From Leptonema illini DSM 21528 (GTDB lineage: Bacteria > Spirochaetota > Leptospiria > Leptospirales > Leptonemataceae): a stretch of 64,000 bases of DNA. The stretch lies in assembly GCF_000243335.1 (NCBI RefSeq), contig NZ_JH597773.1, forward strand, positions 562,489-626,488, in the 5' to 3' direction. A program made the position numbers and the translations under genes. This document shows positions 27,853-36,275 of this stretch, in pieces (position 1 is the first letter of the stretch; each line of letters opens with the position of its first letter). The notes under the pieces are model-generated. The model did not search any database and had not been told where the DNA came from. It was given only the letters and a program-made list of their open reading frames with translations.

Positions 27853-27899
27853 CAGAAGCTGTCTATTCTTTTTTCAGCCGAGAGTGGAGGATCTTACAA

Positions 27900-28725
27900 A
27901 GAATCCTTAAACGGGGGATTTTTTTTACCACAGAGGTCGCGGAGGGCACAGAGAAAACCAAGGCGATCTCCATTTCTCTCGCTTTATTCGCATATTTGGC
28001 GGATAGAAATCCATTTACCACGGAGACACGGAGAAAAGGCAGAAAGATAGGTATGAGATCCACTTCCCCTTTTTTCGCGCTTTTCGTGTATTTCGTGGAA
28101 AAAATCCATTCATCACTGAGGCACGGAGAAAAGGCACGATGGATGAGGCGATCAAGGGCTACAGATTTCTTGCGCGATTTTCGCGTATTTCGTGGTAAGA
28201 AAATCCTTTTGACCGCGAAAAGCGCGAAATACGCGAAAACAATCCGGATAAGAAAAGCGTTCGCGTTGCGGAAAGACCCCAACCCTCCTCTCCGCGTCCT
28301 CAGAGCCCTCCGAGGTTAACCTTCCTGATAGATAACACGAGAAAAAGCCAATCCACCGCAGAGGTCGCGAAGGACACAGAGAAGACCGGAGAGATCTCCT
28401 TCTCTCGCTTTATTCGCATATTTGGCGGACAGAAATCCATTCACCACGGAGACACGGAGAAAAGGCAGAAAGATAGGTACGAGATCCACTTCCCCTTTTT
28501 CGCGCTTTTCGTGTATTTCGTGGAAAAAATCCATTCATCACTGAGGCACGGAGAAAAGGCACGATGGATGAGGCGATCAAGGGCTACAGATTTCTTGCGC
28601 GATTTTCGCGTATTTCGTGGTAAGAAAATCCTTTTGACCGCGAGAAGCGCGAAATACGCGAAAACGATCCGGATAAGAAAAGCTTTCGCGTTGCGGAAAG
28701 ACCCCAACCCTCCTCTCCGCGCCCT
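27900..28725. repeat. Dispersed palindromic repeats with a tandem duplication of about 325 bases
   Basis: No gene here. About 27975-28300 and 28400-28725 are nearly identical copies at an offset of about 425 bases, differing at a handful of positions. Each copy holds three modules: TTTACCACGGAGACACGGAG, TTTCGTGTATTTCGTGG and the self-complementary GCGTATTTCGTGGT / ACCGCGAAAAGCGCGAAATACGCG pair. The second copy stops at CTCCGCGCCCT, exactly where intron 2 begins; the first copy continues through CAGAGCCCTCCGAGG. Open frames in this stretch are repeat by-products. Confidence 0.85.
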
Positions 28726-30639
28726 GTAGAGTAGAGAGGGTGCCGGAAATCCGGCAGCCCTCCCCCTCGTCAAACCGGACGTGCAGATTTCCCGCATCCG
28801 GCTTTCACGAATACCTGTTTCACTGCGTTAAGCATAGGATAGGAATTGCAGCCCCTGTTTCCTCAAATAGGAATTCCAGGTGTCACCCTCCGGGAGCTTC
28901 GTCTTACGCTGGCTTTTCCTCGTGAGGAATTTCCAGAATTTCAGATGGAGATAGTAGTTTACTTCGCTGTAGGCTCTCTTGCGGTATCCCACTGCGAAGT
29001 AGTTATCCCATCCTCTGAGCGTGCGATTCAGCTCTGCGATGGCCTGATCCACCGGTTTATAGGAGTTCCTGTAGGAGAGGAATTCGTGTATTTTCCCTTT
29101 TAGATTCTTGACGGATTTCTTTGACGGATAAACATTCAGGCATAGATAGTTCCTGTGATGGATTCCTTTTTCGTACCGGAAGGAGAAGCCGAGGAAATCA
29201 AGAATCGGGCCTGTCGTTCGCAGATCGACCCACCTTGTTTTCTCTCTGTTTATCGTCAGACGGAATCGTGTTTCAAGTAGATCCTCAAGATGATGGATCA
29301 TCTCTTTCATCGGTTCCTTCATCAAGATCACGAAGTCATCCGCATAGCGTACAATGGATGCCTGAATCTTCCTGCTCGTAGTCATGGCATGGAAGTATTT
29401 CTCGAAGTGATGGAGGTAGATGTTGGCGAGAAGCGGCGAGATGACGCCTCCCTGAGGCGTGCCTATCGTGCTTTTGTGCCATTTCTTCTTTCCATTCTCA
29501 TCGACATCCACTATCGTCGCTTTCAACCACATACGAAGCAGCTTCAAAACGGATCGATCAACGATTCTTCTCTCGACTGCCTTCATGAGATTGTCATGCG
29601 GGATGGTATCGAAATAACCCTTCAGATCCGCGTCATAGACAACACGCTTGCCTCCTTTCAGTTCAGACCGTATCGCTTCAACGGCATCATGTGCCGAACG
29701 ACCCGGTCGGAAACCGTAAGAGGTGTCCAGAAAATCCGCCTCGAAGATCGGTTCGATGATCAGGAGGACGGCCATCTGGATAACGCGGTCTTTGATGGTG
29801 GGGATTCCAAGGGGTCTTTTCCGACCATCCTTCTTCGGAATGTACACGCGTTTAACAGGGTCCGGACGATACGTTGATTCTTTCAGGCTGATTAACAGTC
29901 CCTCAAGAAATCCATCCACACCGTCTTTTCTCTTTTCAATGTCCTCAAAGCTGATTCCGTCGATGCCCGGCGCACCCTTATTGGCCCTTACTCGTTTCCA
30001 CGCAGATTCAAGGGTGTCCTTCCTGAGCACATGGCCGTACAGCGAGTAGAATCGAAACTTTGCTTCCGCTTTTGCTTTGTGAAAGAGCTTCGTTCTCAAA
30101 AGAGAGAGGTCCGCAGAGAGTCCCCACTGGTTTAGCGGGCAGTAGTCTGCATTTTCCGTAGTAGTTTCCAATCGGTCTTTCTCCTCATCTGAATCAGCTT
30201 GTATTCGTCAAGCCTCCTTCGCTCCATCGGAGTTACCCGACTTCGACGCTACTATGAAGCTCTCCGACTTCCCTTCCTGACCGCCCGACGGTTATTCATT
30301 CCCGCCGGACGTTTGCTGGCGCATCAGGAGGGATCTCCCAGGTTCCTCGCGTTCGCCTTACATGCGCGCTGTCCTCCAAGACCCCGGATAGCTCCGTGGC
30401 GGTGAGCGATTGTTGACCGCTCACGGATGGCAGGCTTCACCATCACGGACAGGTTGGCCGCTATCAGTTGAGTAACGAGGCTGAATAGGTTCGCTTTCGC
30501 TACGGCTCGCATGTTCATTTCCCGTGGCTTCGGCCTTTCGGTTGCCCTATGACCGCACGGTTCCTTAACCGCCGAACAATCAATTAGCGGTCCAGGGACG
30601 TTTCACCCTGGTGGCTCACACAGGCTTATCCTGGCGCAC
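28726..30639 (-). mobile_element. Group II intron 2 (1914 bases), class C-like
   Basis: The 5' end GTGCGCCAGGATAAGC is at 30639 and the 3' end CACCCTCTCTACTCTAC at 28726. Domains V and VI (about 28740-28805) match intron 1 except for two bases in the domain VI loop. The flanks join as CTCCGCGCCCT plus CCGAGCCCTCAGTGG on the plus strand, which rebuilds the dispersed repeat module CTCCGCGCCCTCTGAGCCCTCCGCGG in slightly decayed form. So this intron also sits inside a repeat copy, but in a different module from intron 1. The 460 bases between 30172 and 30639 are domain I-III RNA. Confidence 0.85.
28828..30171 (-). CDS. ltrA: Group II intron reverse transcriptase/maturase
   Basis: 447 residues inside intron 2. 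Blocks match the protein of intron 1 in order: GIPTIKDRVIQMAVLLIIEP, YDADLKGYFDTIP, IGTPQGGVISPLLANIYLHHFE, catalytic SIVRYADDFVILMK and ILDFLGFSFRYEKG, then a maturase thumb ending RGWDNYFAVGYRKRAY. There is no endonuclease domain. Conservation with the first copy is strong in the catalytic blocks and weak elsewhere, so these are sister lineages and not a recent duplication. The reading frame is intact. Confidence 0.93.
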   Translation of the reverse strand: METTTENADYCPLNQWGLSADLSLLRTKLFHKAKAEAKFRFYSLYGHVLRKDTLESAWKRVRANKGAPGIDGISFEDIEKRKDGVDGFLEGLLISLKESTYRPDPVKRVYIPKKDGRKRPLGIPTIKDRVIQMAVLLIIEPIFEADFLDTSYGFRPGRSAHDAVEAIRSELKGGKRVVYDADLKGYFDTIPHDNLMKAVERRIVDRSVLKLLRMWLKATIVDVDENGKKKWHKSTIGTPQGGVISPLLANIYLHHFEKYFHAMTTSRKIQASIVRYADDFVILMKEPMKEMIHHLEDLLETRFRLTINREKTRWVDLRTTGPILDFLGFSFRYEKGIHHRNYLCLNVYPSKKSVKNLKGKIHEFLSYRNSYKPVDQAIAELNRTLRGWDNYFAVGYRKRAYSEVNYYLHLKFWKFLTRKSQRKTKLPEGDTWNSYLRKQGLQFLSYA

Positions 30640-31585: not shown

Positions 31586-31939
31586 TCAGTCTTCCGGCAG
31601 TCGAATGCGGATTCTATCGGGCGAGGCCGTAATGATGGCACGATTTTTCAGATCTACGGGATGCTTTTCAAGGATGCGCTTACAGAATGGTCCCTGTTCC
31701 GATGACTTAATGCCGGTAAGGCGAATGATGCCGGCATGCAAGACTCCGTACACAATCGCCAGTTCTCCGAAATCCTTATCAAGAGTAACAAGAACGGCGT
31801 CGTTCTCGAAGGCGTATCTGAGCATTTCTTTATCGCCCGGGTCACGGCCCCATTCTACAGCCCATACGACCTCGAGTCCTTTACTGCGAAGATAATGGAC
31901 AGCGGACCTTCCTATACAGGAATCAAGAAGCAGTTTCAT
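31586..31939 (-). CDS. DUF5615 PIN-like toxin
   Basis: 117 residues. The N-terminal MKLLLDSCIGRSAVHYLRSKG, then GDKEMLRYAFENDAVLVTLDKDFGELA, gives the acidic residues (Asp6, the GD pair and LVTLDKDF) of the Mut7-C/DUF5615 branch of PIN-like nucleases. Proteins of this family pair with DUF433 antitoxins, as here (gene 31954-32190 lies 14 bases upstream on the same strand). RNA cleavage is inferred from the fold. Confidence 0.85.
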   Translation of the reverse strand: MKLLLDSCIGRSAVHYLRSKGLEVVWAVEWGRDPGDKEMLRYAFENDAVLVTLDKDFGELAIVYGVLHAGIIRLTGIKSSEQGPFCKRILEKHPVDLKNRAIITASPDRIRIRLPED

Positions 31940-31953
31940 TGCATACGGAGGCG

Positions 31954-32190
31954 TCAGACTGTGATTTCGACCCGTTCATGCGCAACCATTCTGTGTGCGT
32001 AGGCAAGGCATGCCAGGATGTCTTCTTTCTCCAGATAAGGGTATGCATCAAGAAGAGATTCGATGCTATCTCCGGCGACAAGCATGCCGAGGATATGTTC
32101 TACGGCAATTCTGTGCCCCCGAATGATCGGCTTTCCCGAGAAGATATCAGGATTGAAGGTGATGCGTTTCAGAAGTTCCTGTTCTTTCAT
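31954..32190 (-). CDS. DUF433 antitoxin
   Basis: 78 residues from MKEQELLKRI, with an AGGGAG upstream; the frame is open 23 codons further but without support. ITFNPDIFSGKPIIRGHRIAVEHILGMLVAGDSIESLLDAYPYLEKEDILACLAYA is the whole DUF433 helix-turn-helix pattern (VFSGKPCIRGTRI-like). The protein likely binds DNA upstream of itself and neutralises the DUF5615 toxin. The pair is compact, with antitoxin first, as is normal for type II systems. Confidence 0.88.
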   Translation of the reverse strand: MKEQELLKRITFNPDIFSGKPIIRGHRIAVEHILGMLVAGDSIESLLDAYPYLEKEDILACLAYAHRMVAHERVEITV

Positions 32191-32368
32191 GCTTTCATTC
32201 TCCCTGTAAACCAGTCTCTCGATGGTGAGGCATTCATCATTAAACCGCATATCGAGCAAGTCTCAAGTTTTTTTCTCGTTTCACGTGCAAACCGGGCGAC
32301 ATTTTGCCGGCCAGAATCCCGCCGGGCCTCGTTTTTTTTGCTGGACGAGGAAAGCGATCTGCGTCTGA

Positions 32369-32399
32369 TTGGACATATACCCCATAGGGGTATATGTCC
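32369..32399 (+). promoter_or_regulatory. 13-bp perfect inverted repeat over a promoter, CsoR/CstR-like operator
   Basis: GGACATATACCCC (32371-32383) and GGGGTATATGTCC (32387-32399) are exact reverse complements around ATA. Short C and G runs flanked by an AT-rich dyad are a hallmark of operators of the CsoR/RcnR/CstR repressor family, which sense copper, nickel/cobalt, formaldehyde or persulfide. A possible -35 TTGGAC (32369-32374) and -10 TATATG (32391-32396) with a 16-base spacer lie within the dyad, so a bound repressor would block transcription of the Trx-TrxR fusion gene 19 bases downstream. No CsoR-type gene is in the window. Confidence 0.75.
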
Positions 32400-32417
32400 C
32401 GGATTCAGGAGGATCAC

Positions 32418-33758
32418 ATGGCAGAGCATCGTTTTATTCAAGAGATTCAGGCGTCGCAGTATGAGGCCCTTGTGGTCGGCGCAAAAGGGCCGGTCATCCT
32501 TGACTTCTATTCAGAGGATTGTGTTCCCTGCGAAGCGCTCGCTTCGAAGTTTGAGAGCCTCGCCGATCTTTTCGGTGAAGAGATCCGCTTTTATAAAATC
32601 TTTCGTCAACAGAACCGGGAGCTGGCCACAGAGCTCGGTGTGCGTTCCTCGCCGACCCTGATCTTCTATCGCGACGGTCAGGAGGTCGGACGTCGACTTA
32701 CGGGCGCCATCCGCAAAAAGGACATCGTTGAACAGATTGGCCAGCTGATTCCGGCCGACGCCTTTAATCGCCTCTACGCAAAGCGTTCGTCGTCTACGCG
32801 GGAGGTCGACGTGGCCATTCTTGGCGGCGGCCCTGCCGGGCTGACGGCAGCGCTTTATGCGGCGCAGGCCCGGCTTAACGTGCTTGTAATCGATCAGGAT
32901 CTGACCGGCGGACAGGTGAAGACGACGCATATGATCTCGAACTATCCGGGAACGGGCGGACCTGTATCGGGATGGGAGCTTTCAGAAAAGATGCTGCGTC
33001 AGGTGCAGGAAGCGGGCGCCGACGTTATCGCCGCCGTCGACGTTACGATGGCGAAGCTGAAATCGGGCGAGAGCGTTATCCGAATTGACGATGAGATCGA
33101 AGTGCATGCCCGATCCGTCATCCTCGCTACGGGCGCCGAGCCGCGAAGCCTGGGCGTGCCGGGCGAAAAAGAGTTCCGGGGACGCGGCATCTCGTATTGC
33201 GCCACCTGCGACGGTAAATACTACGACGGCAAAGAGGTCATCGTCATCGGCGGCGGCAATTCAGCCGTCGAAGAATCGATCTTTCTCACGAAGTTCGCTA
33301 CCAGGGTAACGATCGTGCATCAGTTCGATCATCTGCAGGCGAACAAACAGGCGCAGGAAGAGGCCTTCGCAAACGATCGCATCCGCTTTGTGTGGAACAG
33401 CGAGCCGCGCCGATTCGAGCAACTCGCGGACGGACGTATGAAGCTCAGCGTCGAAAACGTCAAGACGGGAGAGACGGATGAGATGATCACCGACGGCGTC
33501 TTCGTCTTTGTCGGCATGGTTCCGAATCTGACGGGCATCGAATCCGACGTGCCGATTGAGAAGAATCAATGGGGCTATGTTATCACCGACGAAGATATGG
33601 AGACGAACGTTCCGGGTATCTTTGCGATCGGTGACGTGCGGGCGAAAAAATATCGCCAGGCCGCCATTGCCGTCGGCGAAGGATGTATCGCCGCCATTGC
33701 CTGTGAAAAACGTCTTGAGGCGATGAAGCATAGCGAAAAAGAGCTTGCGAGCGTTTGA
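32418..33758 (+). CDS. Thioredoxin-thioredoxin reductase fusion
   Basis: 446 residues from MAEHRFIQEI, with AGGAGG six bases before the ATG. Residues 1-110 are a thioredoxin domain whose active site reads DCVPC (Cys35, Cys38) in place of WCGPC. Residues about 128-440 are a low-Mr thioredoxin reductase: FAD motif ILGGGPAGLTAALYA, redox pair CATC in ISYCATCDG, NADPH motif IVIGGGNSAVEES and C-terminal GIFAIGDVR. Known natural fusions mostly carry thioredoxin at the C-terminus; here the order is reversed. It sits under a CsoR/CstR-like operator and precedes the ArsM-like gene by 31 bases; thioredoxin/reductase is the known reductant of ArsM enzymes. Confidence 0.92.
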   Translation: MAEHRFIQEIQASQYEALVVGAKGPVILDFYSEDCVPCEALASKFESLADLFGEEIRFYKIFRQQNRELATELGVRSSPTLIFYRDGQEVGRRLTGAIRKKDIVEQIGQLIPADAFNRLYAKRSSSTREVDVAILGGGPAGLTAALYAAQARLNVLVIDQDLTGGQVKTTHMISNYPGTGGPVSGWELSEKMLRQVQEAGADVIAAVDVTMAKLKSGESVIRIDDEIEVHARSVILATGAEPRSLGVPGEKEFRGRGISYCATCDGKYYDGKEVIVIGGGNSAVEESIFLTKFATRVTIVHQFDHLQANKQAQEEAFANDRIRFVWNSEPRRFEQLADGRMKLSVENVKTGETDEMITDGVFVFVGMVPNLTGIESDVPIEKNQWGYVITDEDMETNVPGIFAIGDVRAKKYRQAAIAVGEGCIAAIACEKRLEAMKHSEKELASV

Positions 33759-33789: not shown

Positions 33790-34431
33790 ATGTCGACACA
33801 AACGAACGAAGCCATTCAGGTACGATACGCCGCCGAAGCTACGACAGCGTGCTGTCTTTCTTGCGGCGGAGCGCTCGATCATGCAAAGCCGCAGCCCGGC
33901 GAGACGCTTGTCGATCTGGGCAGTGGCCGCGGCCTTGATGTTCTGAAGTCCGCTCGTATGGTCGGTGCAACGGGCCGTGCCATCGGCGTCGATATGACGT
34001 CGGCCATGCTTGAGGTGGCCCGCTCCAACGCGGCGAAGCTGAAGCTCGACAACGCTGAGTTTATTCAGGCTGAAATCGAATCCCTGCCGCTTCCCGACGC
34101 CTCCGTCGACGTCGTCATCTCGAACTGCACGATCAATCATGCTCCCGATAAGGCGAAGGTGTACGCCGAGATCCACCGTGTTCTCAAACCGGGTGGACGC
34201 TTCGTCGTATCGGACGTTCTGGCCGATAACGAGCTGCCCGAGCATATCAAGAACGATCCCGAGGCCATCGCCGCCTGTTACGGAGGCGCGATCACTGAAC
34301 AGCAGTATATCGACGCCATCGCCGCCGGCGGTTTTCGTGATCTCGAAATCCTCGAGAAAAGCGAGCCTTATGCGAAAGGCAAGGATCAGGTAATGGTGCG
34401 TTCGCTGACGCTGCGAGGCATTCGCCGTTGA
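33790..34431 (+). CDS. ArsM-like SAM methyltransferase
   Basis: 213 residues from MSTQTNEAIQ after an AGGA. The SAM-binding motif is LVDLGSGRGLDVLKSARMVG, followed by GVDMTSAMLEVAR, as in arsenite methyltransferases. Three cysteine positions match ArsM: an N-terminal CCLSCGGAL block just before the SAM motif, Cys in VVISNCTINHAPDKAKVY, and Cys in AACYGGAITEQQYI. So binding of trivalent arsenic or another thiophilic element is plausible. The protein is shorter than most ArsM, lacking the C-terminal domain. It lies between the Trx-TrxR gene and the peptide gene, and methylation of a peptide or metal(loid) ligand are the two candidate roles; neither is proved. Confidence 0.8.
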   Translation: MSTQTNEAIQVRYAAEATTACCLSCGGALDHAKPQPGETLVDLGSGRGLDVLKSARMVGATGRAIGVDMTSAMLEVARSNAAKLKLDNAEFIQAEIESLPLPDASVDVVISNCTINHAPDKAKVYAEIHRVLKPGGRFVVSDVLADNELPEHIKNDPEAIAACYGGAITEQQYIDAIAAGGFRDLEILEKSEPYAKGKDQVMVRSLTLRGIRR

Positions 34432-34436
34432 TCGAT

Positions 34437-34597
34437 CTTTTACAGCGTAAAAGAGAGACCAGAAGAATAAACAACTCTCAAGAACCGCCACGTATGGCGT
34501 TTTTGAGGAAATGCAAACGGGCATTATTTCGCCAGTCGGCGAGTATGCAACCGCTCGAAACAGAGCGGGGCTTGAAACAAAATAGAAGGAGGCTGAC
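34437..34597 (+). other. Hairpin-rich leader of the peptide gene
   Basis: Four hairpins follow in 130 bases: CTTTTAC/GTAAAAG (34437-34453), CTCAA-CGCCA/TGGCG-TTGAG (34477-34507), CGCC/GGCG near 34540, and CCGCTC/GAGCGG just before the Shine-Dalgarno AAGGAGG. The second is followed by a short pause before the coding region, not by a long T-run. I cannot match it to a known riboswitch. It could process or stabilise the peptide mRNA or act as attenuator. Confidence 0.45.
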
Positions 34598-34696
34598 ATG
34601 AAAGCCGTCACCACCATCAAACCGGTTGCCGCTCAAAAAACGGTAGCTCAGTGCTGTGCAAAAAACAGCAAGATTATCTCAGGCTGTCACGATTGA
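34598..34696 (+). CDS. 32-residue Cys-containing peptide, candidate RiPP precursor
   Basis: An ideal AGAAGGAGG Shine-Dalgarno lies seven bases before the ATG. The product has a lysine- and valine-rich first half and the C-terminal part AQCCAKNSKIISGCHD with three cysteines, a serine and a terminal His-Asp. A rho-independent terminator starts six bases after the stop, then the radical SAM/SPASM gene follows at 34818. Short peptide genes directly before a SPASM radical SAM protein are the standard layout of sactipeptide and related RiPP loci. I infer that the first half is leader and the Cys region core. It is too short for automatic gene finders and easily missed. Confidence 0.75.
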   Translation: MKAVTTIKPVAAQKTVAQCCAKNSKIISGCHD

Positions 34697-34701
34697 TTGC
34701 C

Positions 34702-34724
34702 GGCCCGGTTTTCCGGGCCTTTTT
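34702..34724 (+). terminator. Rho-independent terminator after the peptide gene
   Basis: GGCCCGG (34702-34708), TTTT loop, CCGGGCC (34713-34719), then five T. It would make most transcripts end after the peptide and let a minority read through into the maturase, the usual way to make much substrate and little enzyme. Confidence 0.9.
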
Positions 34725-34817: not shown

Positions 34818-36275
34818 ATGATACAATCACGTTATACATTCACCTTTGAAACGGAATCCGGCCGCTCGTTCATCATGAACTACCTGACCGGAGCGCTCGA
34901 CGAGCTCGAACCGCTCGAAAGACCCGAGCTCGAATCTCGTATGAAAGAAGGGAACTGGAACGACTACCATCTGACGCCGTATATGCTTGAGCGCGGGTAT
35001 CTCTTTGCCTCAGCCGGCGACGAAGAGTCGATGATCCAGGAGAAGTTCCTCGAGTTTCAGGATGAATACGACAGGACGGCCGTTCAGCTGATCTTCTCGA
35101 CGACCTATGTCTGTAACTTCTCGTGTGTGTACTGTTTTCAGGAAAGCTATAAAGAAGAATCGAAGATCCTGACCCCTGAAATCGTCGACGCCTTTTTCAG
35201 CTATGTGGAGCGCCGCTTCGGGAACGAGCCGGTGCGTCCGTATATTACGCTTTTCGGCGGCGAACCGCTTCTTGGCGCCGAGCGCTACAAGAAGAATCTG
35301 ATCTACATGCTTGAGAAGGCAAAAGAGCATGATATCGCCATCTGCATCGTGACCAACGGATACGAGTTGAGTAACTACGTGCCCGAGTTCCAGCGCATCG
35401 GCGTGAAGATTCGCGAGATTCAGGTTTCGATGGACGGCAGCCCTGAGATGCAGAACCACAGGCGTCCGACGGCGGGCGGCAAACCCACTTTTGATAGGGT
35501 CAGCGACGGCATCGATACGGCCCTTCGCGCCGGCTACCGCATCAATCTGCGTATGATCGTCGACCGCGATAACCTCGAATCGCTTGTGGAGCTCGCGAAC
35601 CACGCGCAGCAGTCCGGATGGATGGATTATCCGCAATCGCTCTTTGAAACGACGATCGGTCGCAACTACGAGTTGCATACCTGTCAGCCAAAGGCCAATC
35701 TCTATGATCGTACGACTCTCTGGCAGGACTTTGTCAGAGTGGCGAAGAAACATCCCATTCTCGCGAAGTTTCACCGACCGCAATTCCACGGCATGCGTTA
35801 CCTGAAAGAAAACGGATCGTTACCCATGCCGATCTTTGACGGATGCCCGGCCGGTAAAAAGGAATGGGCCTTCGACCTGAACGGCGACATCTTCGGCTGC
35901 ACGGCCTCTGTCGGTGTTGAGAAGTATCGCCTGGGCAACATCTTCGACGAAGATGCCGTGGCACAGCCCGTTGCCGCCGCACAGTTTGCCTGCACCGATA
36001 CGCTTGAGACGCCGTACAGCTCGCATTTCAGAGACGATCTGATGCAGCCCATCGCCAATCCCGACTCTCTGCCCGGTCCGGCCGAACAGGCCATACAGTG
36101 GGCCCGTCGCGACGTTCTCGCCATAGATCAATGCCGGCAGTGTCCGGTCAGCCTCAGCTGCGGCGGCGGATGCGGCGTACTGGCGGCAAACCGCACCGGC
36201 AAGATCCTCTCGACGGATTGCCGGCCGGTCAAAGACCTGGTCGCTCTCGGCGCCGACTTCTACGGAATCGGTTAA
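34818..36275 (+). CDS. Radical SAM/SPASM peptide maturase
   Basis: 485 residues. Residues 1-85 look like the small RRE-like or leader-contact domain common in these maturases (FIMNYLTGALDELEP, then LTPYMLERGYLF). The radical SAM cluster is CNFSCVYC (Cys99, Cys103, Cys106), followed by LFGGEPLL and the VSMDGSPEMQNHRRP strand. The SPASM domain has FDGCPAGKKEWAFDLNGDIFGC and CRQCPVSLSCGGGC, enough cysteines for two auxiliary clusters. Such enzymes make thioether or carbon-carbon crosslinks in ribosomal peptides. The peptide gene lies 121 bases upstream. The chemistry on this peptide cannot be predicted from sequence. Confidence 0.92.
   Translation: MIQSRYTFTFETESGRSFIMNYLTGALDELEPLERPELESRMKEGNWNDYHLTPYMLERGYLFASAGDEESMIQEKFLEFQDEYDRTAVQLIFSTTYVCNFSCVYCFQESYKEESKILTPEIVDAFFSYVERRFGNEPVRPYITLFGGEPLLGAERYKKNLIYMLEKAKEHDIAICIVTNGYELSNYVPEFQRIGVKIREIQVSMDGSPEMQNHRRPTAGGKPTFDRVSDGIDTALRAGYRINLRMIVDRDNLESLVELANHAQQSGWMDYPQSLFETTIGRNYELHTCQPKANLYDRTTLWQDFVRVAKKHPILAKFHRPQFHGMRYLKENGSLPMPIFDGCPAGKKEWAFDLNGDIFGCTASVGVEKYRLGNIFDEDAVAQPVAAAQFACTDTLETPYSSHFRDDLMQPIANPDSLPGPAEQAIQWARRDVLAIDQCRQCPVSLSCGGGCGVLAANRTGKILSTDCRPVKDLVALGADFYGIG

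Follow-up and report, generated by a model that had tools for sequence, protein, structure and literature searches.

A four-gene run containing a short peptide gene

In the stretch of DNA analysed here (64,000 nucleotides of the Leptonema illini DSM 21528 genome, hereafter the window), a plus-strand run of four genes is bounded on both sides by minus-strand genes. The run begins with a thioredoxin-thioredoxin reductase (Trx-TrxR) fusion (32394-33758, 454 aa, with CVPC and CATC motifs in its sequence), followed by a short ArsM-like methyltransferase (33790-34431, 213 aa), a 32-codon open reading frame (ORF) at 34598-34696 and, 121 bp downstream of the latter, a radical SAM (rSAM)/SPASM enzyme (34818-36275, 485 aa). 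The upstream border is a DUF5615/DUF433 pair (31586-32259), which we take to be a toxin-antitoxin-like association, and the downstream border a polysaccharide-biosynthesis dehydratase-like gene. Elsewhere in the window, the end of a group II intron (RF00029) and its reverse transcriptase/maturase lie at 28726-30171; near-identical repeated ORF stretches (27863-28319 and 28441-28797) flank the group II intron region.

The peptide gene, small enough for gene callers to miss, encodes MKAVTTIKPVAAQKTVAQCCAKNSKIISGCHD and ends with a TGA codon (34694-34696). Translation of the ORF and comparison with its homologues divide the product into a variable leader, comprising about residues 1-16, and a conserved core, AQCCAKNSKIISGCHD; a search with the core pattern returned no second match in the same genome. 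A ribosome-binding site (AAGGAGG, 34586-34592, plus strand) stands 5 nt before the ATG, and the stop codon is followed by a terminator-like hairpin on the same strand (GGCCCGG-TTTT-CCGGGCC, 34702-34719, seven G-C pairs) and a TTTTT run that reaches 34724. A preliminary description of this sequence had reported a 32-codon peptide gene, a well-spaced AAGGAGG and a hairpin with a T-run after the stop, all of which are present; only the distance from stop to stem needs correction, from six bases to 5. Taken alone, the hairpin is weak evidence, because 9 terminator-like sites were counted in 5.2 kb compared with 6.2 expected from shuffling, the hairpin after the peptide gene being listed first among them.

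The 166 nt upstream of the peptide gene (34432-34597, plus strand) fold strongly (z -4.63 versus shuffles) and contain four hairpins, one of which is terminator-like (34486-34499), along with a weak promoter-like match at 34439-34468 on the plus strand. We rejected a conserved RNA structure in this region, since the length of the gap between the methyltransferase and peptide genes is not kept among relatives: its median is 55 nt (77 loci), and in three loci (L032, L047 and L048) it measures 10-13 nt. A known RNA element 5' or 3' of the peptide gene was likewise rejected, as Rfam gave nothing relevant there.

The peptide is conserved alongside the radical SAM/SPASM enzyme

A scan of named genome contigs yielded 512 relatives of the rSAM enzyme, of which the best 80 were examined. 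Adding the window and five more loci (L032, L043, L044, L045 and L046) gives a set of 86 loci, mutually related and not phylogenetically independent. Loci L033-L042 were excluded as the same records as L047-L056, and the weak rSAM paralogues at L018-L031, near which no such peptide was found, were excluded from the counts. In 85 of the 86 loci, a short peptide ending in AQCC(A/S)KxSxxxxGCHD followed by the stop codon accompanies the homologous rSAM/SPASM enzyme. The single locus without it (L061) begins at the rSAM gene on a contig edge, and the peptide is encoded on another contig of the same genome. A broken peptide frame beside an intact maturase, which the preliminary description had named as the observation that would speak against the gene, was thus absent from the set. 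A search for the rSAM enzyme in 61 whole genomes gave 15 strong matches and one contig-end fragment (G028), and in all 16 of these genomes the peptide lies near the match, with G057 having it about 2 kb off on the opposite strand. In two of the 86 loci (L044 and L075), the peptide and rSAM genes are on different strands. As for gene starts, the 24-aa peptide at L066 is an artefact of start scoring, an upstream ATG fitting instead, and the start assigned at L099 is probably too early.

The 77 distinct peptides among these loci share a 16-residue C-terminus, A-[QL]-C-C-[AS]-K-x-S-x-x-x-x-G-C-H-D, in which nine of the 16 residues are invariant in all 77 (A-16, C-14, C-13, K-11, S-9, G-4, C-3, H-2 and D-1, counted from the end). 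The first half of the peptide is variable, except for a start resembling MKSLxKK. Both the conservation of the cysteines and the leader-like variation of the first half, raised in the preliminary description, were therefore borne out. Over all pairs of cores, synonymous change is saturated (pS 0.885), and non-synonymous change is scarce (pN 0.135). In a wider pattern search a few cores carry Thr in place of Ser, so the Ser position is not absolute beyond the 77 peptides. Selenocysteine variants were considered and rejected: the search pattern allowed a stop codon at the last Cys, none was seen, and all cores carry Cys.

We reject a chance ORF in view of the conservation of the peptide across homologous loci and genomes. 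The occurrence in 85 of 86 loci, the pS and pN of the core and the recurrent, sequence-divergent hairpins described below together place the ORF above chance, and on this comparative evidence we regard the peptide gene as confirmed. Its product has a variable leader and a conserved core, as do the precursors of ribosomally synthesized and post-translationally modified peptides (RiPPs), and in the same 85 loci it is a gene-encoded candidate precursor beside a modification enzyme.

The coupling of peptide and enzyme extends to 296 spirochaete genomes, in which the peptide pattern and the rSAM enzyme (E at most 1e-50) were each found in 33 genomes, 32 of them in common. In the one genome with the peptide only (G028), the rSAM gene is cut by a contig end, and in the one with the rSAM only (G102), the match is a fragment stopping at a contig end; a reversed-pattern control gave 0 matches in the 296 genomes. 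The methyltransferase (E at most 1e-30) was matched in 51 of the 296, including all 33 peptide genomes, and the 18 others mostly encode longer ArsM proteins. In G007, which has a methyltransferase match without the peptide, the locus is truncated at a contig end, and G077 (locus L165) holds a relic operon, in which the methyltransferase is intact and a deletion has taken the peptide core, the rSAM gene and most of the Trx-TrxR gene, so that the beginning of the peptide gene is now joined to the 3' end of the Trx-TrxR gene. The peptide pattern was also found in 5 of 296 genomes sampled around a Bacteroidales member. Overall, the putative operon is shared by several phyla, with members in spirochaetes, Bacteroidota, Ignavibacteria, Myxococcota and Deltaproteobacteria.

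The enzyme resembles thioether-forming RiPP maturases

The 485-aa enzyme carries the radical SAM motif CX3CX2C (C99/C103/C106) and seven SPASM cysteines (C343, C361, C439, C442, C448, C452 and C468); this motif and the full seven-Cys set, which characterize the maturases of thioether RiPPs such as sactipeptides and ranthipeptides, are invariant in 50 sequences. The nearest solved chain is CteB, both by sequence profile (E 1.4e-26) and by fold comparison (Z 27.1, rmsd 4.0 over 396 residues, using a model of residues 4-485). The NCBIfam models for RiPP maturases all score below their cut-offs on the enzyme: the best is CefB (NF038107, 107 bits versus a cut-off of 600), followed by PapB (NF047865, 106/340), TIGR04463 (105/525), Clo7bot (TIGR04334, 86/600) and SCIFF (TIGR03974, 84/425).

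Modelled alone, residues 1-87 form three strands and three helices (pLDDT 93). The top 14 chains returned for this domain by VIA-align all belong to RiPP enzymes, chiefly RRE-bearing ones (Z 3.8-5.5), and include TbiB1, TigE, ThcOx, McbB, lasso B1, MccB, the PbtF RRE and CteB; the Z scores for the RREs are modest (about 5), and Foldseek gave no significant match for the domain (E-values above 0.1). We predict from the model that the domain is an RRE-like winged helix, as found in RiPP enzymes. An RRE binds the leader peptide; a leader-core precursor is therefore to be expected beside the maturase, and the ORF looks like one.

Compared with known systems, the enzyme is most like CteB of the thioether RiPP system CteB/CteA (PDB 5WGG, 5WHY), which also combines rSAM, SPASM and an N-terminal RRE, but the two are only about 18% identical across the structural alignment. 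Unlike CteA, the precursor here ends in AQCC(A/S)K...GCHD, and its operon also encodes the ArsM-like methyltransferase and the fused Trx-TrxR. PapB and CefB, which provide the best NCBIfam scores, remain far below their cut-offs, and in contrast to the PapA/PapB ranthipeptide class, the peptide has no repeated CX3D or Cys-every-fifth motif but a single C-X-D at its end. PapB is a distant relative; according to PMC9413430, it joins Cys to Asp or Glu and accepts Cys-Xn-Asp with n = 0-6, so that a C-X-D crosslink would be chemically plausible here as well.

The window peptide matches no NCBIfam or Pfam model, and a Bacteroidales peptide no NCBIfam model. A description of the motif or operon was not found in the open-licence full-text literature (rSAM atlases in subscription journals could contain one), and no matching cluster was seen in the portion covered of a Bacteroidales RiPP mining study (PMC10352776). 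The peptide operon thus appears to be a new family, apparently unnamed, within the rSAM/SPASM RiPPs.

A terminator-like hairpin recurs after the peptide gene

The preliminary description had placed a terminator of its own between the peptide gene and the maturase gene, and the relatives bear this out. Within a fixed 75-nt window after the peptide stop codon, 29 of 83 loci have a terminator-like hairpin, compared with 5.2 expected from shuffles; by the simple rule used, the other 54 have none. These hairpins mostly begin 5-19 nt past the stop, and their sequences differ between loci. When the gaps between the peptide and rSAM genes were used instead, a hairpin was found in 27 of 63 versus 4.5 expected (the 63 being what remains of 85 loci after setting aside 22: 2 with the genes on opposite strands, 2 without an rSAM start and 18 with gaps that are too short). 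At two control junctions, hairpins numbered 2 in 47 (methyltransferase to peptide, 0.84 expected) and 3 in 33 (rSAM to Trx, 0.50 expected). The recurrent hairpin supports the layout put forward in the preliminary description, in which a short, abundant mRNA and limited readthrough would yield much peptide and little enzyme.

A methyltransferase, a thioredoxin system and the wider neighbourhood

The order methyltransferase-peptide-rSAM is kept in relatives, and the Trx-TrxR fusion (counted if at least 380 aa long and within 4.5 kb) is near in 70 of 82 loci. According to PMC3877260, residues C72, C174 and C224 of CmArsM bind As(III). Cysteines C25, C113 and C163 of the operon methyltransferase align with these, and in a family of 79 sequences they are present in 75 (the rest having gaps), 78 and 79, respectively; the operon enzyme thus retains the three As(III)-binding cysteines of ArsM. 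It shares them with CmArsM/AS3MT but, at 213 aa, is shorter than the canonical enzymes and sits with the peptide operon. Against NF008823 (PRK11873) it scores 231.1 bits, short of the cut-off of 263. The window's genome has two more ArsM copies, both long and located elsewhere. Many of the operon methyltransferases of Bacteroidota end in a Cys-rich tail (e.g., CCCC or CGCGC); one or more Cys occur among the final 14 residues in 47 of the 79 sequences but not in the window copy. In three spirochaete genomes (G064, G075 and G287), the reading frames of ArsM-like proteins continue through a single in-frame TGA, and these proteins are possibly selenoproteins.

We also considered 141 neighbouring ORFs (on the same strand, 110-700 aa long and no more than 2.6 kb away, with up to three taken per locus), among which DUF302 was found in 22, Thioredoxin in 21, DUF1847 in 9 and ABC_tran in 2. 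Read from these families, the neighbourhood is a thiol-redox context with no recurrent exporter. No dedicated leader protease that would cleave the precursor was seen. A defence system was rejected, as PADLOC gave superfamily matches only (viperin for the rSAM enzyme and mads_2 for the methyltransferase). In 18 mostly Bacteroidota loci (including L057, L058, L060, L063 and L064), a transposase-type ORF lies near the operon on the opposite strand; we call it IS1595-like, a name that we presume from its sequence, without a family match.

Discussion

The preliminary description named neither a RiPP function nor the wider operon. We propose that the ORF encodes the precursor of a RiPP matured by the adjacent radical SAM/SPASM enzyme, a reading to which we assign a probability of about 0.88 because of the conservation of the core, the coupling to the rSAM enzyme, the RRE-like domain, the conserved partners and the recurrent terminator. 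In such a pathway, the Trx-TrxR, methyltransferase, peptide and rSAM genes would form one operon, and the terminator after the peptide gene would end most transcripts, providing many peptides per enzyme. The leader would dock on the N-terminal RRE, whose fold is predicted, and the enzyme, with the help of SAM and a pair of auxiliary Fe-S clusters, would crosslink at least one of the three invariant cysteines, the C-terminal C-H-D being a possible site. The crosslink would most likely be a thioether, as in CteB and PapB, and by analogy with these enzymes we moderately favour thioether chemistry on the peptide. The ArsM-like methyltransferase and Trx-TrxR may then act with the product, the former methylating either the peptide product or a metalloid bound to the thiols of that product, and the latter keeping the peptide thiols reduced.

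The product probably stays inside the cell and, instead of acting against competitors, performs a conserved task in thiol-redox or metalloid chemistry. Since the core does not vary from phylum to phylum and no exporter recurs nearby, we advance tentatively, at somewhat less than even odds, a function inside the cell that involves thiols or metalloids. A more specific version is speculative and rather unlikely as it stands: the crosslinked Cys-Cys...Cys-His peptide could serve inside the cell as a dedicated thiol ligand or cofactor, delivering a trivalent metalloid or another soft ion to its ArsM-like partner and being recycled by Trx-TrxR. In that case it would stand in for glutathione, as a gene-encoded molecule, in the methyl chemistry of metalloids or sulfur.

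The same maturase could also produce an exported antimicrobial or signal, i.e., a bacteriocin or quorum peptide, and its relatives in NCBIfam and the PDB do include sactipeptide and ranthipeptide enzymes. However, peptides of competition usually diversify, whereas the present core stays invariant in four or more phyla; moreover, ABC_tran is scarce (2 of 141 neighbours) and the 25 commonest neighbour families contain no export peptidase, which makes export improbable. We consider equally improbable a redox cofactor precursor like PqqA or MftA, from which the core would be excised to yield a small molecule. Precursors of this type show cross-phylum invariance at the C-terminus, as does the extreme C-terminus here, and no exporter recurs beside the operon, but the 25 commonest neighbour families include neither an excision peptidase nor a dedicated dehydrogenase. 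Mycofactocin and PQQ likewise are intracellular RiPPs with a conserved C-terminal core in distant bacteria, and their accessory enzymes differ from those of the operon. An unmodified, metallothionein-like metal-binding mini-protein, with the rSAM gene adjacent for another reason, would accord with the three Cys and one His that are invariant and with the ArsM-like and Trx-TrxR neighbours; nevertheless, the strict one-to-one co-occurrence with the rSAM enzyme and its RRE-like domain point to a maturation substrate, rendering this reading quite improbable. Least probable is a regulatory upstream ORF or attenuator leader that senses cysteine through its adjacent Cys codons and controls the rSAM gene through the recurrent hairpin directly past its stop, since the protein is conserved to its last residue (G-C-H-D) despite saturated synonymous change, the simple rule detects no hairpin in 54 of 83 loci, and in L044 and L075 the peptide lies on the other strand.

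Returning to the RiPP precursor reading, RiPPs do not usually keep a core nearly unchanged from one phylum to the next, as is the case here, and such conservation speaks for a basic function in the cell. A single scan found 512 relatives of the rSAM enzyme, the best 80 of which were examined, and several hundred bacterial genomes may carry the operon. The constant association of a presumably modified, Cys-rich peptide with a thioredoxin system and an enzyme resembling arsenite methyltransferases leads to a testable hypothesis, namely that the peptide's thiols take part in metalloid or sulfur chemistry.
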